A stretch of 42,032 bases of DNA, taken from positions 1-42,032 of the forward strand of contig JABMMM010000077.1 of assembly GCA_013205565.1 (NCBI GenBank). The letters are read 5' to 3'. The stretch comes from Alcaligenaceae bacterium. GTDB lineage: Bacteria > Pseudomonadota > Gammaproteobacteria > Burkholderiales > Burkholderiaceae_B. Numbering within the stretch: the first letter of the stretch is position 1; the number at the start of each line of letters is the position of its first letter. A program made the translations under genes and the position numbers. Under the pieces are notes generated by a model that ran no database searches, was not told the DNA's origin, and worked only from the letters and a program-made list of their open reading frames with translations. Below are positions 29,648-42,032 of this stretch, piece by piece.

Positions 29648-29751
29648 GCGTGAGTCGAATACAAGCTGATGCTCAAAGAGTCAGCAAAGCATTAAAGCCG
29701 CGCGATTCGAATACGAACTAATGCTGCAAGAGCCAATAGAGTGCTCAGACC
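29648..29751 (+). repeat. Imperfect 52-bp tandem repeat between GMC and glpD ends
   Basis: Positions 29648-29699 and 29700-29751 align without gaps at 35 of 52 bases, best in the first 33 (26 identical). Shared cores are TCGAATAC and ATGCT. The repeat fills the whole convergent gap after the GMC stop and before the glpD stop. I found no hairpin terminator there. It looks like an old duplication. Confidence 0.7.
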
Positions 29752-29755
29752 ATCG

Positions 29756-31426
29756 CTACCCAGGTAATTTCAAGTAGTGCAACGCAAGTGCTTTAAACGC
29801 TTCAATGTCCGGGTCGTGGGCGAGGATCTCATCGGCAATAATTTCGCCGACCGACTCAGCCATCGAACCGGCAAGCTTCGCATCTAAAAATAATAAACGT
29901 GAGCGCCGTGCAAGTACGTCTTCGACTGTGCGCGCATATTCGTGGCGCACGGCAAAGCGCACCATGGCCTCGGTGAGACCGCCACCAAGGTGACGTTCGG
30001 CGCCAGGTAACTGAGTGACCTCCTCTGCCTCGTCGCCATAAGCTTTTAAACCGGGAGCCTCGTACATGGGGTGATCGACCTTGCGACCCGTTTGTGCACC
30101 GACTAAGGCTAGGTTGGCTGTGACGCAGGCTTGGCGTTCGGGTAAAAGTTTGGCGTCCACACAGTGCTTCAACACGTCTTGTGCCATGGCACGATAGGTC
30201 GTCCATTTGCCGCCGGTGACTGTCACCATCTTGCTTTGGCTAATTAAAACAGTGTGCTCGCGACTGATCGCTTTGGTGTTGCCATCGTCATCTTTTGGTG
30301 GTTTGACCAGGGGTCGCAGGCCAACCCAGATACTTTTAATATCTTCGCGCGTGGGCGCGCGCGTCAGGTAGCGGGCAGATTCGCGCAAAATAAATTCGAG
30401 TTCTTCTGAATAAGGATCTGGCTCACGGTTCAAATCGTGGCGCGGTGTATCTGTCGTGCCGATAATGACTTTGCCTAACCACGGTACTGCAAACAGTACG
30501 CGTCCATCCGAGGTGTGCGGCACAATGATGGCGTGCTCGCCTGCTAAAAACTCGCGATCGACCACCACGTGTACGCCTTGGCTTGGTGCGACCATAGCGG
30601 TACTTGTTCTGCCCGCAGCCCCATCATCTTGTGCTCGTAGTGCATCGACCCAAACCCCAGCCGCATTGACGACGCAGCTAGCTTTAATTTGATAGGTTTG
30701 TTGCGTGTCGTGATCTTGTGCCACTAAGCCTGTGATTTGACCATTGCTGTGCGTCAGTTCAAGGGCGCTGCAATAGTTAATCAGCAATGCGCCGCGTTGT
30801 GCCGCGGTGCGCGCCAACGCCAGCGCCAGGCGCGCGTCGTCAAACTGACCGTCCCAGTATTTAACCGAGCCTTTTAAGCTCTGAGTGTGAAGATTAGGGA
30901 CGTGCTTGAGCGTTTCTTGTGCACCCCAAAAGCGGGTACGCCCTAAGCTGCGTTTGCCCGAGAGTGCGTCATACAGGATTAAACCGGCGCCGTAGAACGG
31001 GAGCTCCCAAAACTTGTAGCAAGGCAAAACAAAGGCAAGTGGTTGCGCTAAGTGTGCGGCATTATGTAATAAGGTTGTACGCTCGTGTAATGCTTCGTAA
31101 ACGAGCGAGACGTTGCCTTGAGCAAGATAGCGCACACCGCCGTGTACGAGCTTGGTTGAGCGTGATGAGGTACCTTTTGCAAAATCGGTCGCGTCAAGCA
31201 GTACAACGGAATAACCCCGCGAGGCCGCATCGAGCGCTAAGCCCAAGCCTGTAGCGCCTCCTCCAATGATGGCTAGATCGTAGGTTTGATTTTCGGCCAG
31301 ACGTGCAAACAGCTGCGCGCGATCGGTGCGTAGCGGCGGATGCGGCGCCCGATCGGTGCGAAGTGGTGCACCTGGTGCGCGCGAGAGCTGTGTCGCTTGC
31401 GGTGTCTGTAGCGTCTGCGGTGCCAT
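29756..31426 (-). CDS. glpD: Glycerol-3-phosphate dehydrogenase, aerobic FAD-dependent
   Basis: The protein has 556 residues from ATG 31426, which overlaps the glpK stop by one base (TGATG). The FAD motif is IIGGGATGLGLALDAASRG, followed by KGTSSRSTKLVHGGVRYL, the GlpD signature. Further on come IPHTSDGRVLFAVPWLGK and VTVTGGKWTTYR, and the C-terminal helical domain. It is a peripheral inner-membrane enzyme that converts sn-glycerol-3-phosphate to dihydroxyacetone phosphate and reduces quinone. The first about 35 residues before RTDRAQLFARL are an extension with a 10-residue duplication (PLRTDRA twice, DNA period 30 bp near 31317-31376). The real start could be further in, but no better start codon is evident. 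Confidence 0.95.
   Translation of the reverse strand: MAPQTLQTPQATQLSRAPGAPLRTDRAPHPPLRTDRAQLFARLAENQTYDLAIIGGGATGLGLALDAASRGYSVVLLDATDFAKGTSSRSTKLVHGGVRYLAQGNVSLVYEALHERTTLLHNAAHLAQPLAFVLPCYKFWELPFYGAGLILYDALSGKRSLGRTRFWGAQETLKHVPNLHTQSLKGSVKYWDGQFDDARLALALARTAAQRGALLINYCSALELTHSNGQITGLVAQDHDTQQTYQIKASCVVNAAGVWVDALRAQDDGAAGRTSTAMVAPSQGVHVVVDREFLAGEHAIIVPHTSDGRVLFAVPWLGKVIIGTTDTPRHDLNREPDPYSEELEFILRESARYLTRAPTREDIKSIWVGLRPLVKPPKDDDGNTKAISREHTVLISQSKMVTVTGGKWTTYRAMAQDVLKHCVDAKLLPERQACVTANLALVGAQTGRKVDHPMYEAPGLKAYGDEAEEVTQLPGAERHLGGGLTEAMVRFAVRHEYARTVEDVLARRSRLLFLDAKLAGSMAESVGEIIADEILAHDPDIEAFKALALHYLKLPG
31317..31376 (-). repeat. 30-bp tandem duplication inside the glpD N-terminal extension
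   Basis: The core CGATCGGTGCG occurs at 31320-31330 and again at 31350-31360, with flanking similarity. Because the period is a multiple of three, it keeps frame and gives the duplicated PLRTDRA peptide in the variable N-terminus of GlpD. Confidence 0.75.
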
Positions 31427-32928
31427 CAATTTGCCCAGCCTTTTGCGCGTTCGAGTGCTTGATGCCATCTTGCCATTTTTGCCTCACGGTCGGCAGGCGC
31501 CATGCTAGGCTCGAATCTGCGGTCAACCGACCATTGCGTGGCAATGTCTTTGGTGCTTGACCACAAGCCAACAGCCAAGCCTGCCAGATAGGCCGCGCCG
31601 AGTGCTGTGGTTTCGGTTACCTTTGGGCGTACAACTGGCACGCCCAGAAAGTCTGCCTGTAGCTGCATCAATAAATTATTGTTTGATGCGCCGCCGTCTA
31701 CCCGCAATTCGGCCAGTGCAATCCCAGAGTCTTTTGCCATGGCGGCAAACACATCGGCCACCTGCAGCGCAATCGCTTCAAGTGCTGCGCGGGCAATGTG
31801 GGCTTTAGTCGTGCCGCGTGTCATGCCGATGAGCGTGCCACGGGCGTTGCCATCCCAAATGGGTGCGCCCAAACCGGTGAAGGCAGGCACCAGATAGGTG
31901 TCGGCAACGTCGGGTACGCTTGCCGCCAAGGCTTCGACTTCAGAGGCTGACGCAATGATGTTTAAACCGTCGCGTAGCCATTGGATGGTGGCGCCGCCCA
32001 TAAATACCGAGGCTTCAAGGCAGTAGGTGGTGGCGGGCGCTTGAGCAGAGGCTTCAAGGCGTTGCCAACCGACCGTCGTAAGTAATTTGTTTTGACTGAC
32101 CACCGGCGCATGCCCGGTATTCAACAGCATGAAGCAACCGGTGCCGTAGGTGTTCTTCGCCATACCAGGTTCAAAGCAGGCCTGACCGAAAGTTGCGGCC
32201 TGTTGATCACCAATCAATGAGCCGATCGGGATGGCGCGACCAAACAGGCTTGGCTCAGTGTGCGCCACGACACCCGAACTCGGCACGACTTCTGGCAAGA
32301 GCGCACGTGGGATCTTGAGCAAGGCCAGCAGTTCGTCATCCCAGGCAAGGGTGTGCAAATTGAACAGCAGCGTGCGTGAGGCATTGCTCGGGTCGGTAAT
32401 GTGCGCCTGGCCCTTGGTCAGATTCCAGACCAGCCAGCTATCGATGGTGCCAAAGGCTAATTCGCCACGCTCGGCACGTGCGCGTGCGCCGGGAATGTTG
32501 TCGAGCAGCCAAGCGAGCTTGGTGCCTGAAAAATAAGCGTCTAAGACTAAACCGGTTTTTTCTTGGATCAACGCCTGATGGCCTTGTTGCCTTAAAGCGT
32601 CGCAGTGTTCAACCGTACGACGGTCTTGCCAGACGATGGCGTTAGCCAAAGGTTCACCAGTTTTACGATCCCAAAGCACGGTGGTTTCGCGCTGATTGGT
32701 GATGGCGATTGCCGCAATCGCTTGCTTAGGGCTGGTGTCGGCCAGCACTTGCTTGATCACCTGCAGTTGCGTCTGCCAGATCTCAAGCGCGTCATGCTCA
32801 ACCCAGCCAGGCTGGGGAAATATCTGCTTGAACTCGCGCTGCGCACGATGCACCGCGCTTCCCTGCGCGTTGAACAAAATAGCGCGAGAGCTGGTGGTGC
32901 CTTGATCTAGCGCGAGGATGTGGGTCAT
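31426..32928 (-). CDS. glpK: Glycerol kinase
   Basis: The protein has 500 residues from ATG 32928 ([19 protein letters not shown]); a TTG two codons earlier is also possible. FGGY kinase signatures are [37 protein letters not shown] and [23 protein letters not shown]. It phosphorylates glycerol to glycerol-3-phosphate with ATP in the cytoplasm, feeding GlpD encoded directly downstream with overlapping codons. It is divergent from ugpB across a 150-base AT-rich control region. The glycerol facilitator glpF is not in this window. Confidence 0.97.
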
Positions 32929-33078
32929 ATTCAAGAGTTTAAGGGCTAAATATTATTTATATTTTGGGTCGCTCAATGGCGAGATGTCTCATCATAAGCG
33001 CCCCATGCGCGGTTAACATGAACTGTCATAATAAAAAGCTAAGCTAAGAACTCGATCATTCATTAAATGAGGGATGCC
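32929..33078. other. Divergent control region glpK / ugpB
   Basis: These 150 bases separate glpK-glpD from ugpBAEC. The left part is strongly AT-rich (32949-32965). On the minus strand, TTGAGC and TAATAT lie 15 bases apart ahead of glpK, a poor promoter match. On plus, TTAACA (33013-33018) is near a -35 consensus but without a matching -10. The start of ugpB carries AGGG. No recognisable GlpR operator was found by eye. Confidence 0.4.
33023..33031 (+). promoter_or_regulatory. Possible Pho-box half site before ugpB
   Basis: CTGTCATAA at 33023-33031 matches the first 7-mer and spacer of the enterobacterial PhoB box. The second repeat expected 11 bases on is not conserved (AAAAGCT), and the upstream TTAACAT is only a partial match at a 10-base offset. 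The ugp operon is PhoB-controlled in E. coli, so the site is plausible but unproven. Confidence 0.25.
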
Positions 33079-34398
33079 ATGAAATTCAAATTTTCTATCG
33101 CAACGGCTTCGACCGTTTTTGCATTAAGCGCCTCAGTTTTTACACCCGCCCAAGCGCAAACCGAGATTCAATGGTGGCACGCCATGAGTGGCGCCTTGGG
33201 CGAATGGGTCAACGATCTGGCTAAAGACTTTAACGACAGCCAAAAAGATTACAAAGTCATGCCTGTTTTTAAAGGCACCTATGACGAAGCTATGACGGCG
33301 GCGGTGGCAGCTTTTCGCGCCGGTAACGCCCCGCATATTTTGCAAGTGTTTGAAGTGGGCACCGCCACGATGATGGCCAGTAAAGGCGCGATCGTGCCGG
33401 TCACTGAAGTGATGAGCAAAGCCGGCATCAAGTTTGATCCTGCGGCCTACGTGCCGGCCGTGGCCGGTTACTACACCGCGCCAAATGGTCAGATGCTGAG
33501 TTTTCCATTCAACAGCTCAACAACCGTATTTTGGTACAACAAAGACGCGTTCAAAGCGGCCGGCCTGGATCCCGAAAAACCACCACTGACGTGGCCTGAA
33601 GTCACTGCGGCGGCAAGAAAATTAAAAGACTCTGGACACAAATGTCCGCTTACGACCAGTTGGGTCAGTTGGACGCAGCTCGAAAGTTTTAGCGCCTGGC
33701 ACAATACCGAATTTGCCACGCAAGGTAATGGCATGAAGGGCAATGACGCACGCCTGACTCTCAATGGCCCTTTGCAGACGCGTCACATTCAAAACCTGGC
33801 AGACATGTCCAAAGAAGGCTTGTTTGTTTATAAAGGCCGAGCCAACGCGGCTGACCCCACGTTTGTTGCGGGCGAATGCGCGATGACGACGGGCTCTTCG
33901 GCACTGTACGGTAACGTTAAACGTAATGCGAAGTTTGCCTTCGGGACTTCGACCTTACCGTATTACGCTGACGTGCAAGGGGCACCGCAAAACACTGTGA
34001 TTGGGGGCGCGAGCTTGTGGGTGATGGCGGGCCGTAAAGCGGATGAATACAAAGGTGTTGCGCAGTTCTTTGACTTCTTGTCGCGTCCAGAAGAAGCCGC
34101 AAAAAGTCATCAGCGTACCGGCTATCTGCCGTTGACGCTCGCCTCGTTTGAACTAACTGAAAAGTCGGGCTTTTATAAGGCGAACCCAGGCACCGACATT
34201 TCGGTGACGCAGATGATTCGCAAAACAACCGACAATTCGCGCGGGATTCGGCTGGGTAACTTTTTACAAATTCGCACTGCGGTCGATGAAGAACTCGAAC
34301 AGGTGTGGGCTGGTAAGAAACCTGTCAAGGATGCGCTCGACTCAATCGTCAAGCGCGGCAACGAGTTGCTTGAGCGTTTTGAAAAAGCCAACCGTTAA
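33079..34398 (+). CDS. ugpB: Glycerol-3-phosphate ABC transporter, periplasmic binding protein
   Basis: The protein has 439 residues from ATG 33079, placed six to seven bases after AGGG; ATG 33067 is possible but includes that ribosome site. The signal peptide is about 1-24 (FALSASVFTPAQA). The mature protein closely follows UgpB wording: IQWWHAMSGALGEWVNDLA, GTYDEAMTAAVAAFRAGNAP, LQVFEVGTATMMASKG, LSFPFNSSTTVFWYNKDAF and GGASLWVM. It captures glycerol-3-phosphate or its diesters in the periplasm for UgpAEC. It is the first gene of ugpBAEC and is divergent from glpK-glpD, so import and use of the same metabolite are linked. Confidence 0.95.
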   Translation: MKFKFSIATASTVFALSASVFTPAQAQTEIQWWHAMSGALGEWVNDLAKDFNDSQKDYKVMPVFKGTYDEAMTAAVAAFRAGNAPHILQVFEVGTATMMASKGAIVPVTEVMSKAGIKFDPAAYVPAVAGYYTAPNGQMLSFPFNSSTTVFWYNKDAFKAAGLDPEKPPLTWPEVTAAARKLKDSGHKCPLTTSWVSWTQLESFSAWHNTEFATQGNGMKGNDARLTLNGPLQTRHIQNLADMSKEGLFVYKGRANAADPTFVAGECAMTTGSSALYGNVKRNAKFAFGTSTLPYYADVQGAPQNTVIGGASLWVMAGRKADEYKGVAQFFDFLSRPEEAAKSHQRTGYLPLTLASFELTEKSGFYKANPGTDISVTQMIRKTTDNSRGIRLGNFLQIRTAVDEELEQVWAGKKPVKDALDSIVKRGNELLERFEKANR

Positions 34399-34416
34399 GA
34401 GCGCAAGCGGCTTGAA

Positions 34417-35304
34417 GTGATAGAAAAAAAAGTACGCTTCAAGTCGCGTTGGCTGCCTTGGGTGCTGCTCGCACCCCAGTTGGCGATCGTCTTGGTTTTT
34501 TTCTTTTGGCCCGCAGGCCAGGCGTTATATCAAAGCGTGCTCGAAGAAGACGCCTTTGGTATGTCACGCGAATTTGTAGGCATGCAAAATTTCGTGCGAC
34601 TTTTTAACGACCCGCTTTATTTAGAGTCGTTTCAAACTACAGCCTTGTTTTCAGTGTTGGTGGCAGTTTGTGGCTTGAGTTTGGCACTGTTGCTTGCTGT
34701 GATGGCCGATCGGGTGTGGCGGGCGGCCAGTGTGTATAAGACGCTGCTCATCTGGCCCTACGCGGTCGCACCCGCCGTGGCCGGCGTGTTGTGGTTGTTT
34801 TTATTTGCCTCGCCGATGGGGGTCATTGCTTTTGCCCTGCGTTGGTTGGGTGTGGACTGGAATCATCTATTGGATAGCCGTGATGCGATGACGCTCATCG
34901 TGGTGGCTGCAGTCTGGAAGCAAATTTCTTATAATTTTTTATTCTTTCTAGCTGGTTTGCAGTCGATTCCAAAGTCATTGCTTGAAGCGGCAGCGATTGA
35001 CGGCGCAACCCCCTGGCACCGCTTTCGTACGATCGTGTTTCCGTTGTTGTCACCCACCACGTTTTTTTTGCTGGTGATTAACGTGGTGTACGCCTTTTTT
35101 GACACCTTTGCCATCGTCGATGCCACGACGCATGGTGGCCCGGGCAAAGCCACGTCAATCTTGGTTTACAAGGTGTATTACGATGGCTTTAAAGCGCTGG
35201 ATATGGGAAGTTCAGCTGCGCAGTCTGTGATCTTGATGGTCATCGTGGTGTGTCTGACCATTGTGCAGTTTCGGTTTATCGAACGCAAAGTGCAATATGC
35301 TTGA
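34417..35304 (+). CDS. ugpA: Glycerol-3-phosphate ABC transporter, permease UgpA
   Basis: The protein has 295 residues from a GTG at 34417, with six membrane segments. The permease EAA loop that contacts the ATPase reads [20 protein letters not shown] (about residues 191-210). [25 protein letters not shown] is the usual first helix of this family. It is an inner-membrane channel subunit pairing with UgpE. It is spaced 18 bases from ugpB and 18 from ugpE. Confidence 0.93.
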
Positions 35305-35322
35305 GCACCACAAAAAATCATC

Positions 35323-36177
35323 ATGATTGAAAGACGCCCCGGCCTGACCGTCTTGTCTCATCTGGTATTGCTACTAGGTGTCTTGATTGTGGCGTTTCCG
35401 GTGTATGTGACGATCGTCGCGTCAACCCAAACCACTGCACAAATTACGCAAGCGATTCCGATGTCTTTGGTGCCCGGCGAGCATATGCTCGACACCTATC
35501 GCGTCGCGTTGTTTGGCGGCAGCACTGAGTCGGGTGGGCGTATTTCACCGGCCTGGCCGATGATGTGGGTCAGCCTGGTCACCGCGCTTTTAATCAGCCT
35601 CGGAAAAATCACCATCTCAATGCTCTCGGCCTTTGCCATTGTCTATTTCAGGTTTCCGTTTCGGGGGCTTGTTTTTTGGATGATTTTTATCACCCTAATG
35701 CTGCCGGTGGAGGTGCGTATCGGACCCACCTACGAGGTGGTGTCCAATCTTGGCATGCTGAACTCGTACGCGGGACTGACGGTGCCCTTGATGGCATCCG
35801 CTACAGCGACTTTTTTGTTCAGGCAGTTTTTTCTGACAGTCCCCGACGAGTTGGTTGAGGCTGCGCGTATGGATGGCGCGGGCCCCATGCGATTTTTTTG
35901 GGATGTGCTGCTACCGCTTTCGCGTACAAGTATTGCTGCGCTGTTTGTGATTCAGTTTATTTATGGCTGGAACCAATACCTGTGGCCCTTGCTGGTGACC
36001 ACCAACGAGAATATGTATCCGGTGGTGATGGGAATCAGGCGCTTGATTTCGGGTGACGCTTACACCGAGTGGAACGTCGTGATGGCGACCGCAATGCTGG
36101 CGATGCTGCCACCAGCCTTAGTCGTGGTGCTGATGCAAAAATGGTTCGTCAAAGGACTGGTAGATTCTGAAAAATGA
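35323..36177 (+). CDS. ugpE: Glycerol-3-phosphate ABC transporter, permease UgpE
   Basis: The protein has 284 residues with six membrane segments. The EAA loop is [21 protein letters not shown]. Other marks are [15 protein letters not shown] and [20 protein letters not shown], typical of UgpE. It forms the transmembrane channel with UgpA in the inner membrane. The ATG start gives [20 protein letters not shown]. The ATPase gene follows after 81 bases that contain a small imperfect hairpin around TGAGCTCA (near 36192). Confidence 0.94.
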
Positions 36178-36258
36178 AGCGAGCATTGAGTGAGCTCACG
36201 CTCAACAATGCCTAAACAAACAACCACCCAGTAAACAAACCCTCAAGCGTAAATCGAC

Positions 36259-37263
36259 ATGGCTGCCATTTCTTTAAAAAATCTTGTGAAGCAGTATGGC
36301 GTAGGTAAAGCCGCGGTGCAGGTGATCCATGACGTCTCGGCTGAAATCGGCGATGGCGAATTTGTGGTCATCGTGGGCCCTTCAGGCTGCGGCAAGTCAA
36401 CCTTGCTTCGCATGGTGGCTGGGCTTGAAGAGATCACCGCAGGCACCATTTCAATCGGCCCGCGTGTGGTCAATGACCTTGAACCGGCCGAGCGCGACAT
36501 CGCGATGGTGTTTCAAAACTACGCGTTGTATCCGCACATGAGTGTGTTTGACAACATGGCTTATGGTTTAAAGATTGCCCGCGTGCCAACGGCCGAGATC
36601 CGAGCCCGCGTCGAGAAGGCGGCCGGTATTCTTGAGTTGATGCCGTACTTAGAGCGCAAGCCGCGCGCGCTGTCGGGTGGGCAACGCCAGCGCGTGGCCA
36701 TGGGGCGAGCGATTGTGCGTCAGCCCCAAGTATTTTTATTTGATGAACCCTTGTCAAACTTAGATGCAAAACTGCGTGCGCAGACTCGACTTGAAATTCA
36801 AAAGCTGCACCGTGAGTTGGGGATCACGTCGTTGTTTGTGACCCATGATCAAGTCGAGGCGATGACCTTGGCGCAACGCATGTTGGTCATGAATAGTGGA
36901 GTGATGGAACAGTTTGGCACCCCGGAAGAGGTTTATAACCGGCCAGCAAGCACGTTTGTGGCCAGTTTTATCGGCTCGCCACCCATGAATTTACTGAAAG
37001 CGGCACCGGGCGTGGCAGAGGGCTCGATTTTGGGGATCCGACCCGAGCATCTTGAGCTTGGCACCGAAGGTTGGGCGTTAACGGTCGAGGGTATCGAGCT
37101 GCTTGGCGCAGAACGCTTGCTTTATTGTCGCTTGCAAGACGAATCGCTGATTGTGCGTATTCACGAAGAGCAACAGGCACCGAAAGTGGGCGCGACGATC
37201 TATGTCAGACCGCGGCCAGACCGCCTGCACTTGTTTGACGCGCACACCGGGTTGCGCTTGTAA
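36259..37263 (+). CDS. ugpC: Glycerol-3-phosphate ABC transporter, ATPase UgpC
   Basis: The protein has 334 residues. Walker A is GPSGCGKST (about 40-48), the signature [14 protein letters not shown], Walker [17 protein letters not shown], and the switch His is in VTHDQ. A C-terminal MalK-type TOBE/regulatory domain begins near residue 235 ([21 protein letters not shown]). It hydrolyses ATP in the cytoplasm to drive UgpAE. It is slightly shorter than the E. coli protein. It is the last gene of ugpBAEC; no clear terminator follows. Confidence 0.95.
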
Positions 37264-37388
37264 GGGTTTTCGCTAGGGCGTGCAAGACTCGTGCGTCACG
37301 TGCAAAGCGGCTGAACGTGCCTGTCTCAGGCCGTACCCACGAACCCCTAGCTACGGAAGGCTTCACTGTGATATCGTGCCGACATTAA
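37264..37388. other. Non-coding stretch after ugpC
   Basis: This stretch of 125 bases runs from the ugpC stop to the visible edge of the amidohydrolase remnant. The frame of the remnant continues leftwards past a TAA (37386-37388) as an open but unrecognisable peptide, so it may hold further decayed amidohydrolase sequence. I see no terminator, RNA gene or convincing promoter. Confidence 0.5.
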
Positions 37389-37592
37389 TGGGGCACAGAT
37401 TGGCCGCACCCAAATATCGCTGCACCGATGCCAAATGATGGTGATATTGCCGCTGCGGTGTTTAAATGGTTGCCCGAGGCAGTGCTACGGCACCAGATTC
37501 TTGTAAAAAACCCTGAAGTTTTGTATGACTTCGCTCCTTTTATTCACAACACTTTTAAAAATGTTCAACCTTCAAAATCGGAGATTCTATGA
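37389..37592 (+). pseudogene. Remnant 3' end of an amidohydrolase (COG3618/PF04909-like) gene
   Basis: An uninterrupted frame from 37389 encodes about 67 residues beginning WGTDWPHPN, then MPNDGDIAAAV, and HQILVKNPEVLYDF. This is the C-terminal end of TIM-barrel amidohydrolases of the 2-pyrone-4,6-dicarboxylate lactonase-like group: the last-strand GTDWPHP carries the metal-binding Asp, and the NPxxLY helix closes the barrel. The codon before it is a TAA where a Leu (TTA) would fit, and no upstream barrel is present, so the enzyme is destroyed. Its TGA overlaps the dctP ATG (ATGA), suggesting a former operon. A 54-codon frame from ATG 37428 could still be translated. This was recognised by eye; no search was run. 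Confidence 0.7.
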
Positions 37593-38587
37593 AACGTCGT
37601 CACTTATTTGCGCTGTCGGCCCTGGTTGCCGCAACCTTCGCGTTGGGCGCACCTACCCAAGCGTTGGCTCAAAAGACTATTTTAAAATTCGGCTGGACCA
37701 CAGTCGACAGCCCGACTGATCCTTACACAGTGGGTGCAAAGGCTTTTAAGAAGGCTGTTGAAGCCAATTCTAAAGGCTCGATCGAGGTTCAGCTTTATCC
37801 TAATCGCCAACTCGGCGAAGAAAAGCAGGTCATGGAGGCCGTACGTTTCGGCACGGTCGATATGACGATTATGACCAACGCTGTGCTTGCTCAAATCGAG
37901 CCCGCCTATCAAGTCAACGATTTGCCCTTTTTATATTCGAGCGAAGAACAAGCTCGCAAGGCATTAGATGGCAAGCTTGGCAATGATTTGTCGGCGCTGT
38001 TGGCCAAGAAAAATATGCTTGTGTTAGGGTATATGGAAGGTGGCTTTCGCCAGATGATCAACAACAAAAAGCCTGTTGGTGTGCCTGCTGATGTGACCGG
38101 CGTTAAATATCGAGTGATGCAAAATCCGATGTATATCGACATGTTCACCTCGTTGGGTGGCGCAGCCGTGCCGATGGCTTGGGGTGAGGTCTTTACTGCC
38201 GTTCAGCAGGGCACGATTGACGGTCTTGAGATTCCGGTCGCCGTGATTGACAGCTCAAAAATGTATGAAGTGACAAAGTTTTTGTCGATGACTAATCACA
38301 CCTATTCGGCGATTGCGCTCTTGATCTCAAAACGCTCGATGGATAAGCTCACTCCCGAGCAAAAGACAGCGGTGCTCGAAGCCGGCAAGACCGCGACGGC
38401 TGAGCAGCGCGCAGCGGCGCTGGTCAACGAGAAAGCTTTGCTGACAGGCCTGGCGCAAAAAGGCATGATTATTAACAAAGTGGCCGATGTCGCACTTTTC
38501 CGTAAATCGGTTCAACCGATTTACGACAAGTCGCGTGCCGCTGTCGGTGATGCTTTGATTAATCAAGCACTCGACGCAGTGAAATAA
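37589..38587 (+). CDS. dctP: TRAP transporter substrate-binding protein DctP
   Basis: The protein has 332 residues with a signal peptide (about 1-27, LFALSALVAATFALGAPTQALA). The mature protein has DctP-family wording: LKFGWTTVDSPTDPYTVGA, IEVQLYPNRQLGEEKQVMEA, YRVMQNPMYIDMFTSLGG and VPMAWGEVFTAVQQGTIDGLE. It binds an organic acid in the periplasm for the DctQM permease; the conserved Arg in KYRVMQNP normally grips the carboxylate. The ribosome site CGGAG sits in the amidohydrolase remnant. A hairpin terminator follows the gene, before dctQ. Confidence 0.94.
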   Translation: MKRRHLFALSALVAATFALGAPTQALAQKTILKFGWTTVDSPTDPYTVGAKAFKKAVEANSKGSIEVQLYPNRQLGEEKQVMEAVRFGTVDMTIMTNAVLAQIEPAYQVNDLPFLYSSEEQARKALDGKLGNDLSALLAKKNMLVLGYMEGGFRQMINNKKPVGVPADVTGVKYRVMQNPMYIDMFTSLGGAAVPMAWGEVFTAVQQGTIDGLEIPVAVIDSSKMYEVTKFLSMTNHTYSAIALLISKRSMDKLTPEQKTAVLEAGKTATAEQRAAALVNEKALLTGLAQKGMIINKVADVALFRKSVQPIYDKSRAAVGDALINQALDAVK

Positions 38588-38595
38588 GCGGGTTT

Positions 38596-38628
38596 AAAAA
38601 AGCGCTCGGCGACGGGCGCTTTTTTTTT
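38596..38628 (+). terminator. Intrinsic terminator/attenuator between dctP and dctQ
   Basis: GCGCTC (38602-38607) pairs with GGGCGC (38614-38619, one G-U) around a 6-base loop, extended by A6 on the left and a run of nine T on the right (38620-38628). It lies 9 bases after the dctP stop and before dctQM. Partial termination here would give more binding protein than permease. Confidence 0.75.
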
Positions 38629-38656
38629 AACAGTACTTTTGGATTGGAACAGCGCG

Positions 38657-39127
38657 ATGCGGCAGTTTTTTGACAGGCTCGAAAGCGTTTTAAAGATGAC
38701 CGCGGTCGTGATTGTGCTGCTGATGCTCTTGACGCTGAGCGCACAAGTTTTTTTGCGTTATGTGTTTGGTAAAGCTTTGTCATGGAGCGAAGAGCTTTCC
38801 TTGCTTGGCTTTGCCTGGGTCGTGGTGATTTCGACGGTGATTGGTATTCGTCGAATGTCTCACGCACGCATGGACTTGGTTATTGGCTTGTTGCCCAAGT
38901 CCTTGCATCGCACAGCAGAGGCCCTGGTGGCGCTCTTAATGAGTGCCTTGGGCATCTTTATTGCCTACGCAGGCTGGAACTATCTTCTCGAAACACGCGG
39001 CGCAACCTCGGCCGCCATTGGATTTCCGATTGAGTTTTTGTACGCAGCAGCACCCACCTTTGGGGTGTTAATTGCCTTGTTTTCTTTTGAACGTTTACTG
39101 CCCTGGGCGGAGTCGTTAAATGAGTAG
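38657..39127 (+). CDS. dctQ: TRAP transporter small permease DctQ
   Basis: The protein has 156 residues from ATG 38657, preceded by GGAAC; a TTG at 38639 would add six residues but has no ribosome site. Four membrane segments are visible, with the family wording LSAQVFLRYVFGKALSWSEELSLLGFAWVV split across residues 30-60 and RRMSHARMDLVIGLLP. It forms the small membrane subunit with DctM. Its stop overlaps the dctM start by 8 bases. Confidence 0.92.
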   Translation: MRQFFDRLESVLKMTAVVIVLLMLLTLSAQVFLRYVFGKALSWSEELSLLGFAWVVVISTVIGIRRMSHARMDLVIGLLPKSLHRTAEALVALLMSALGIFIAYAGWNYLLETRGATSAAIGFPIEFLYAAAPTFGVLIALFSFERLLPWAESLNE

Positions 39128-40388
39128 CACCGCTTGGTTGTTGTCGGCAGGGTTTGGCGTTTTGATGTTGCTGGGGGTGCCGTTTGCTTTTGCGATCGGT
39201 ATCGTCGTGGCGCTGTCTTTATTGGTCTCTGGCATTGAACCTATGCTGTTGCCGCAGACGGTTGTGGCCGGCACGCAATCGTTTTCGTTGTTGGCGATCC
39301 CATTTTTTATGCTAGCGGGTGAGTTGATGTCTGCGGGCGGGTTGTCGCAACGCTTAATCAAAGTAGCCGAAGTGTTTGTGCGCCATCTGACAGGTGGCTT
39401 GGGGCTTGTCACGGTGTTGGCCGCCGCTATTTTTGCCGCAATTTCTGGCTCTGCGCCTGCGACAACCGCGGCAATTGGCGCGATTATGATTCCGGCCATG
39501 GCCGAGCGCGGCTATAGCAAACCTTTTGCGACGGCGGTTGCGGTGAGCGCCGGCATTTTGGCCCCCTTGATCCCGCCGTCGATTGCGTTTGTGATCTGGG
39601 GTGTGATCGCCGAGCAGTCAATCTCGCGCTTGTTTAGTGCAGGGATTTTGCCTGGATTGTTGATGGCAGCTGGGTTGATGGTGGTTTGCTGGTGGCATGC
39701 CAAAAAACATAAGATCCCCACGCAACCACGCGCGACAATGGCAGAAATCCGCGCGGCCCTGCGCGATGGTATCTGGGCGTTGCTTGCACCCGCCATTGTT
39801 TTAGGGGGCATTTATGGTGGTGTCTTTACCCCGACCGAGGCGGCAGTTGTCAGTTGTGTGTATGCGCTCTTTGTGGGCACGGTCGTTGAAAAGCGTTTGA
39901 AATGGCGCGAATTGCCCGACATTGTGTGGCGCTCAACCAAAGTCACTGCGATTGTCATGTCGATTATTGTATTCTCGGCCGGCTTTGGTATTTTGGTTGC
40001 TCAAGAGCAGCTCGCACCTAAGGCAGCGACTTGGCTCGCCGCAAATATCCAAGAAAAATGGATTATGTTGTTGGTCTTGAATTTGGTGTTTTTCTTGGTG
40101 GCCGCGGTGATGGATGAAATCGCCATCATGGTCGTGTTTGGTCCGCTGCTGATTGCGATTGCCAATAGTTTTGCAATTAGCCCAATCCACTTTGGTGCGA
40201 TTATCGTCACGAACGTGGCGATCGGTATGGCGGCGCCACCGATTGGTTATTGTTTGTTTGTTGGAATGGCGATTAGTGGCTTAAAACTCACAGATGTATC
40301 GCGCGTGATGCTACCGTTTGTGGGGGTGATGCTGATTGTGTTGATGTTAGTGACGTATGTGCCTGGCTTTGCGTTAGCGCTGCAATAG
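39120..40388 (+). CDS. dctM: TRAP transporter large permease DctM
   Basis: The protein has 422 residues, about twelve membrane segments, inner membrane. DctM signatures include LLAIPFFMLAGELMSAGGLS, ISGSAPATTAAIGAIMIPAM, LAPLIPPSIAFVIWGVIAEQS and GVFTPTEAAVVSCVYAL. It is the sodium-coupled transport subunit working with DctP and DctQ. It starts inside dctQ (8-base overlap). It converges on queC across 23 bases. The substrate is not readable, although a link to an aromatic or lactone acid is suggested by the amidohydrolase remnant. Confidence 0.95.
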   Translation: MSSTAWLLSAGFGVLMLLGVPFAFAIGIVVALSLLVSGIEPMLLPQTVVAGTQSFSLLAIPFFMLAGELMSAGGLSQRLIKVAEVFVRHLTGGLGLVTVLAAAIFAAISGSAPATTAAIGAIMIPAMAERGYSKPFATAVAVSAGILAPLIPPSIAFVIWGVIAEQSISRLFSAGILPGLLMAAGLMVVCWWHAKKHKIPTQPRATMAEIRAALRDGIWALLAPAIVLGGIYGGVFTPTEAAVVSCVYALFVGTVVEKRLKWRELPDIVWRSTKVTAIVMSIIVFSAGFGILVAQEQLAPKAATWLAANIQEKWIMLLVLNLVFFLVAAVMDEIAIMVVFGPLLIAIANSFAISPIHFGAIIVTNVAIGMAAPPIGYCLFVGMAISGLKLTDVSRVMLPFVGVMLIVLMLVTYVPGFALALQ

Positions 40389-40411
40389 GTAAAAGGCGCC
40401 CAAGCGGCTTA

Positions 40412-41104
40412 TCACGCAAATTTTGCATCCAGCGGGTCTTTGATCCCCACCTGCGCAAACCCCTTGGCCCGCAGCAAGCACGAGTCACACTGCTTGCAGG
40501 GCGCGCCAGTGGGCGCCGGATCGTAGCAGCTAGTCGTTTCTGAAAAATCGATCCCCAGCTCTAACCCCTTACGAATAATATCGGCCTTACTCATGCTGAT
40601 GAGTGGTGCACGAATCTTGAGCCGTTGTGCACCTTCGACACCCGCCTTGGTGGCAAGGTTGCCTAAGTGTTCAAAGGCCTCAATGAACTCAGGGCGGCAA
40701 TCGGGGTAGCCGCTGTAATCCATTGCATTGACACCCACAAAAATATCTTGCGCACCCAGCACCTCGGCCCAGCCCAAGGCAAAACTTAAAAATATCGTGT
40801 TTCGTGCGGGTACGTAGGTGATCGGGATCCCCGCGCTGATGTCATCCACAGAGTGACCTTTTGGCACGTCAATATCGGCGGTTAACGCCGAGCCGCCAAA
40901 GCTGCGTAGATCGATATCCAAAATCGCATGGCGCGCCACGCCGCGCAACTTGGCAAAGGCGGCAGCCCGCTCAAGCTCAATCGAGTGACGTTGGCCATAA
41001 CGAAAACTCAGCGCATAAACTTCAAAGCCTTCGTGCTGAGCCATCGCCACCACGGTGGTTGAATCTAAACCACCACTTAATAAACAGACTGCTTTCTTAG
41101 ACAT
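40412..41104 (-). CDS. queC: 7-cyano-7-deazaguanine synthase QueC
   Basis: The protein has 230 residues. The PP-loop ATP motif SGGLDSTT is at about 10-17. The C-terminal zinc site Cys residues lie in [20 protein letters not shown]. It converts 7-carboxy-7-deazaguanine and ammonia to preQ0 using ATP, a step in queuosine tRNA modification. The other que genes are not nearby. It follows the mmsA-like gene by 15 bases on the same strand, so it may be read from the same message. Confidence 0.96.
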
Positions 41105-41119
41105 AAGACGTGTGACCTT

Positions 41120-42032
41120 TTACTTCGCTGTCGGCATCACAAATTCAGCACCCTTGCCGATGGTTTCGGGCCAGCGCTGCATGATTGATTTTTGTTTGGT
41201 ATAGAAGCGCACGCCTTCTTCGCCGTACGTATGCATATCGCCAAACAGGCTCTTCTTCCAACCGCCAAAACCATGCCAGGCCATGGGTACCGGAATTGGC
41301 ACATTGATCCCGACCATGCCGACTTGAATGCAGCGACTAAATTCGCGTGCGACGTTGCCATCGCGTGTGTAGCAAGACACGCCATTGCCAAACTCGTGGG
41401 CGTTGATCAGGTCAACCGCCTCGCTAAAGTCTTTGACGCGCACGCAACCGAGCACAGGGCCAAAAATTTCTTCTTTATAAATACGCATTGAGGGGGTGAC
41501 GTGGTCAAACAAACTACCGCCAGTAAAAAAGCCTTGCTCGTGACCCGGCACTTTAATCCCGCGCCCATCGACGACAAGTTTGGCACCTTCTTTGACGCCA
41601 ACTTCGATATAGCCTTCGATGCGTTCAAGTGCCTGACGTGTGACGATAGGGCCCATTTCGGCGTCGAGTTCAAGACCATTTTTGATTTTGAGTGTTTTGG
41701 CACGAGCGGCAAGCAAGGGTACGACTTTGTCTGCCACATCGCCTACTAGTACGGCGACTGAAATTGCCATGCAGCGTTCGCCTGCCGAGCCATACGCTGC
41801 GCCAATTAGGCCATCAACTACCTGATCGATATCGGCATCCGGCATGACTACCATATGATTTTTAGCGCCACCCAAGGCTTGTACGCGTTTGCCTAAATCG
41901 GCACCACGTTGATAGATGTATTGCGCGATCGGTGTTGAGCCCACAAAGCTGATGGCTTTGACGTCTGGATGCTCGAGCAGTGCATCGACGGCGACCTTAT
42001 CGCCTTGCACGACGTTAAAGACGCCGTCGGGC
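41120..42032 (-). CDS. mmsA: Methylmalonate-semialdehyde dehydrogenase (CoA-acylating), partial
   Basis: About 304 C-terminal residues are visible; the N-terminal part lies beyond the right edge, and the frame runs open to position 42032 ([18 protein letters not shown]). Aldehyde dehydrogenase features include [36 protein letters not shown] and the catalytic Cys in [14 protein letters not shown]. The MmsA-type wording is [20 protein letters not shown], near the C-terminus. It converts methylmalonate semialdehyde (valine or myo-inositol breakdown) to propionyl-CoA. queC follows closely downstream. Confidence 0.92.

Follow-up and report, generated by a model that had tools for sequence, protein, structure and literature searches.

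Gene loss from operons and the remnants that deletions leave behind are well known in bacteria. In G006, the closest relative of the genome studied here, as well as in Zwartia hollandica and Z. panacis, an amidohydrolase gene stands before the TRAP transporter genes dctPQM, in the same position and direction as the gene fragment described below. We take the genus to be Zwartia (family Alcaligenaceae), a freshwater member of which has been described (PMC10535154). A literature search covering titles and the openings of abstracts yielded no description of the present locus, which does not exclude that it is treated elsewhere in print. The sequence analyzed here is a stretch of 42,032 nucleotides, referred to as the window (Table 1). 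We consider it highly probable that one deletion of about 0.8 kb took the front of the amidohydrolase gene, and that the remnant forms a mostly untranslated leader of the retained transporter, with the promoter probably kept. This is an event of a known kind, namely ordinary gene loss by deletion in which the transporter is retained.

Table 1. Features around the deletion junction, in window coordinates
Feature	Position	Strand	Basis
ugpC, final gene of the ugp ABC transporter operon that lies upstream	36259..37263	+	NCBIfam NF008653, E 1.4e-154; same position in relatives
TGTGATATCGT, probably the extended -10 element of the promoter that once served amidohydrolase-dctPQM	37367..37377	+	motif present in 11 of 18 relatives, suggesting the promoter role
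TAA preceding the Trp codon, contributed by the sequence upstream of the deletion	37386..37388	+	G006 has ACATCAA here, intergenic
Deletion junction, 797 G006 bases missing	37388..37389	.	blastn against L064
Remaining 3' end of the PF04909 amidohydrolase gene (67 codons plus stop)	37389..37592	+	Pfam, NCBIfam, PDB and G006 matches
54-codon open frame within the remnant, from the first in-frame ATG/GTG/TTG past the junction (37428)	37428..37592	+	ORF reading
GGAG within the remnant, probably the ribosome site of dctP	37580..37583	+	by reading; GGAGACTCTATG or a similar sequence precedes dctP in relatives
dctP, TRAP solute-binding protein	37589..38587	+	PF03480, E 3.8e-79; TIGR00787, E 6.7e-74
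dctQ, TRAP small permease, TTG start	38639..39127	+	PF04290, E 3.7e-27
dctM, TRAP large permease	39120..40388	+	PF06808, E 2.6e-109; TIGR00786, E 4.1e-126

Between the stop of ugpC and the start of dctP lie 325 bases, in which an earlier note on this DNA had recognized the C-terminal end of an amidohydrolase, a reading that the homology searches bear out. The frame at 37389-37589 (WGTDWPHPNIAAPMPNDGDIAAAVFKWLPEAVLRHQILVKNPEVLYDFAPFIHNTFKNVQPSKSEIL, 67 codons) reads WGTDWPHPN, MPNDGD and ILVKNPEVLYDF, and its TGA (37590-37592) overlaps the dctP ATG (37589-37591) in an ATGA arrangement. In a Pfam profile search the frame aligned with positions 243-289 of the 289 of PF04909 (E 8.8e-6; 26.1 bits, slightly under the cut-off of 26.4 bits), in NCBIfam with positions 249-297 of 299 of NF042924 (E 6e-10; 38.8 bits, the cut-off being 500) and among PDB chains with 4mup (E 3.9e-9) and 4d8l (E 4.5e-8). 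The decisive evidence is the match to the intact G006 orthologue, which is 97% identical over the surviving 67 residues (E 1.3e-42). The frame is thus the 3' end of a PF04909 amidohydrolase gene, with 47 of the 289 profile positions left. A working enzyme of this family has a complete barrel, an N-terminal HxH and a C-terminal Asp; here the Asp end is the sole surviving part, the N-terminal portion having been deleted. Taken alone, the 54-codon part from the ATG at 37428 had no Pfam hit with an E-value of 1 or lower, and the 39 residues 5' of the TAA matched no Pfam family.

G006, whose dctP is 99% identical to that of the window, carries the intact gene between ugpC and dctP (304 codons from the ATG, within a stop-free frame of 309 codons) with the same ATGA overlap. 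By blastn against the G006 sequence L064, window positions 29740-37388 align with 16162-8562 (90.0% identity) and positions 37389-42032 with 7764-3066 (91.5% identity). Relative to G006, which defines the extent and the ends of the deletion, 797 bases are absent from the window, of which 86 belong to the leader and the rest to codons 1-237, the start included. The sequence 5' of and including the TAA aligns with the intergenic region of G006, where CAA takes the place of TAA; the stop was therefore joined to the gene by the deletion and did not arise as a nonsense mutation inside it. Gradual decay with a premature TAA, put forward in the earlier note, accordingly gives way to a single cut with the TAA as a product of the junction, and the Leu expected there before the Trp is Val in the intact copies (DRLVWGTDWPH in 17 of 17 listed). 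The remnant contains no additional frameshift or stop, which suggests that the deletion is probably recent. No microhomology was found at the junction in the comparison with G006. As a separate observation, the leader of several relatives contains GGGGC, a sequence that might have paired with the TGGGGC of the junction.

The distribution of the intact gene was assessed in 32 genomes of the genus, including that of the window. A dctP gene was found at E up to 1e-60 in 24 of them, and the upstream sequence was readable in 22; we excluded G030, whose contig starts inside dctP, and G025, whose contig ends about 24 bases before it. The comparison suggested in the earlier note did find the intact gene directly before dctP, in G006 and in total in 19 of the 22 assessable (Zwartia-like) genomes, counting G011, where a contig end cuts it; the gene is lost in three (G000, G021 and G031). 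Of the regions compared, 17 of 20 have it directly before dctP, the exceptions being L077, L079 and L082. G021 and G031 have like junctions, unlike that of the window, with the scrap DAVQILVHNPEVLCDFP before dctP, and in the dctP tree they form a clade with G025 (support 0.998) apart from the window and G006 (0.993). The different junctions together with this tree indicate at least two losses, and from the likeness of their junctions we infer that G021 and G031 share one event. In a scan of named genomes, among the best 80 loci of at least 584 relatives, 22 have a dctP match in the same direction no more than 200 bases after the gene. Fourteen of these belong to a close group (L092-L101, L103, L106-L108) and eight are more distant (L109, L110 Curvibacter delicatus, L113, L115 Bordetella petrii, L118, L123, L126 and L128); L156 was not counted, its weak dctP match (33%) lying about 1.1 kb downstream.

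The ancestor would have had an amidohydrolase-dctP-dctQ-dctM operon after ugpC. A single deletion of about 0.8 kb, beginning just past the promoter of this operon and ending with codon 237 of 304, would have removed the enzyme and spared the transporter, whose usefulness presumably does not depend on the enzyme. The motif TGTGATATNGT is found within 300 nt before the amidohydrolase gene in 11 of the 18 relatives examined (G002 is among those without it; G011, whose contig starts inside the gene, was left out of the count) and is absent in the other seven, as well as in G021 and G031. The window has a single copy, counting both strands, and it lies 11 nt before the junction. Its survival there suggests that the operon promoter was probably kept, so that TGTGATATCGT, judged by conservation, is probably the extended -10 of this promoter, retained after the deletion. 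A sigma-70 consensus scan placed no site at TGTGATATCGT, which says little, since shuffled sequences give only 0.4 sites on average; no -35 element is evident near it. With the extended -10 read as TGA-TATCGT, the start of transcription would fall near 37384, a few bases short of the junction, and the first 200 nt or so of the new mRNA would come from the coding sequence of the dead amidohydrolase gene and would mostly go untranslated. Ribosomes would then enter at the GGAG that dctP itself has five bases before its ATG; the location of this site inside the dead gene and the overlap of the TGA with the dctP start were both correctly recognized in the earlier note. A structured RNA in the gap was considered and rejected: a search of positions 36800-38000 against Rfam (E up to 1) was negative, positions 37262-37392 are single-copy in their own genome, and the fold of the leader is no stronger than that of its shuffled versions (z-score +1.0, 200 shuffles). 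Likewise, a terminator suspected by eye between ugpC and the intact gene of G006 was not found by a scan. In G020 the gap between ugpC and the amidohydrolase gene (L068:8477-8735) is longer, at 257 bases, and holds repeated GGGGCT/AGGGCT units, which are fewer in other relatives.

An incomplete gene in a draft assembly could also mean that the gene is whole in the organism and that 797 bases were lost in assembly. The genome is indeed in 337 contigs and 95.85% complete, and the junction 21-mer occurs in one of the 61 genomes searched, its own; at about 10% divergence such uniqueness is expected and says little. Against an artefact, there is no overlap at the junction relative to G006 that an assembler could have followed, both flanks are collinear with G006 within one contig, and the missing piece does not turn up on another contig: the genome, searched with 1101 G006 bases, returned the two flanks, five matches of 17-27 bases and nothing else. 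The independent loss in G021 and G031 moreover demonstrates that such loss occurs, and we regard an assembly error as very unlikely. Still less credible, to the point of being negligible, is that the short frame is ancestral and full-length genes were acquired, or that the resemblance is due to chance, given the 97% identity to an intact gene, the presence of this gene at the same place in most of the assessable genus genomes and the same gene-transporter order in the eight more distant loci. A short frame conserved among relatives that have no full-length gene, which the earlier note had named as evidence against a dead gene, was not encountered.

The remnant might instead be a functional short gene, its 54-codon product being translated and coupling or regulating dctP translation through the ATGA, as the earlier note had entertained. 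The frame is open and ends in the ATGA with dctP, it differs from G006 by two nonsynonymous and five synonymous changes, and in the second, independent loss, too, a C-terminal scrap survived in front of dctP. The corresponding dN/dS of 0.106 could reflect constraint, but much of the divergence measured against G006 may predate the deletion. The ATGA overlap is inherited, being present with the intact gene in G006, and the scrap in G021 and G031 differs, is shorter and is closed by a TAA about 40 nt before dctP. Between the TAA at the junction and 37428 there is no in-frame ATG, GTG or TTG, and no Shine-Dalgarno sequence was seen by eye before the ATG at 37428. Together with the GGAG that dctP has of its own and an unremarkable fold, which 170 of the 200 shuffles equal or surpass, this makes a translated coupling leader improbable, little speaking for it other than an open frame and an ATGA that was inherited. 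In a broader form, the tail would have been kept for use, its 3' end setting dctP translation as RNA or peptide in both losses; a dead enzyme gene would then have turned into a leader that regulates the transporter once partnered with it, for which we see only a slim chance. The deletion remnant as a mostly untranslated leader thus remains the reading that we prefer.

Downstream of the remnant, PF03480, PF04290 and PF06808 lie side by side, as in a complete DctPQM TRAP transporter. Compared with G006, dN/dS is 0.012 for dctP, 0.039 for dctQ, 0.014 for dctM and 0.056 for ugpC. A cleaner comparison is the one between G021 and G031, which both lack the enzyme and where dN/dS of dctP is 0.048 over 307 codons; if their loss is shared, the transporter is under purifying selection without an amidohydrolase at that place, and it has been maintained there without the enzyme. 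We considered whether the remnant is unusually conserved, as it has 7 differences in 201 bases relative to G006, a lower rate than in ugpC or dctP overall, and rejected this: identity spans 73 to 100% per 100 bases over 36001-42032, so that the remnant's conservation is not read as selection. Identity to G006 falls to 73-86% per 100 bases at the 3' end of dctP (window positions 38301-38600), below its surroundings, which might reflect recombination. In another relative, G027, two tandem ugpB-like genes (L065:3035-5735) are 83.8% and 93.9% identical to the ugpB of the window.

The transporter module is eroded from the other side as well. In G008, G017 and G024 a family III CoA-transferase-like gene precedes the amidohydrolase gene; that of G008 matches PF02515 (E 1.2e-114), and the likeness in G017 and G024 was judged from the starts of the sequences only. 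G003 (L102:4703-6873) and G026 (L105:4725-6873) have the CoA-transferase-like gene and the amidohydrolase gene with no dctPQM match after them, and in G028 the same two genes are followed by the contig end. The module hence erodes in both directions, the situation in G003 and G026 being the reverse of the loss in the window. As dctP is under selection without the enzyme and the enzyme gene occurs with no dctPQM after it, the substrate of the transporter should not be inferred from the amidohydrolase alone.

By sequence, the intact orthologue of the lost protein is nearest to structures of the type of LigI, the 2-pyrone-4,6-dicarboxylate lactonase (PDB 4d8l). The intact G006 orthologue scores 155.9 bits against PF04909 and aligns with LigI over residues 17-283 (E 3.7e-37), the alignment including DCHFH and WGTD. 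Four arginines serve as substrate ligands in LigI; two of the four, R130 and R183, are replaced in the G006 protein by Ala and His. The sole NCBIfam family matched by the intact orthologue is NF042924 (4-sulfomuconolactone hydrolase), and with 166.2 and 161.9 bits two intact orthologues fall outside it, the curated cut-off being 500 bits. The hint of the earlier note at 2-pyrone-4,6-dicarboxylate as a clue to what DctPQM imports is therefore not supported. For DctP, the best-scoring solved chains are 4nq8, 4pdd and 4p47. Further amidohydrolase relatives are encoded on other contigs of the genome itself, the best (41% over 50 residues) in a 302-codon open frame on C262, so a related activity may remain.

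Set beside deletion remnants in bacteria generally, the window is alike in that a 3' end is left beside the ribosome site of the downstream gene with the neighbours intact. The exact ends show an operon losing its first enzyme and keeping its transporter and probably its promoter. The case is the same in kind as those remnants; here, two separate losses in one genus spared the transporter.
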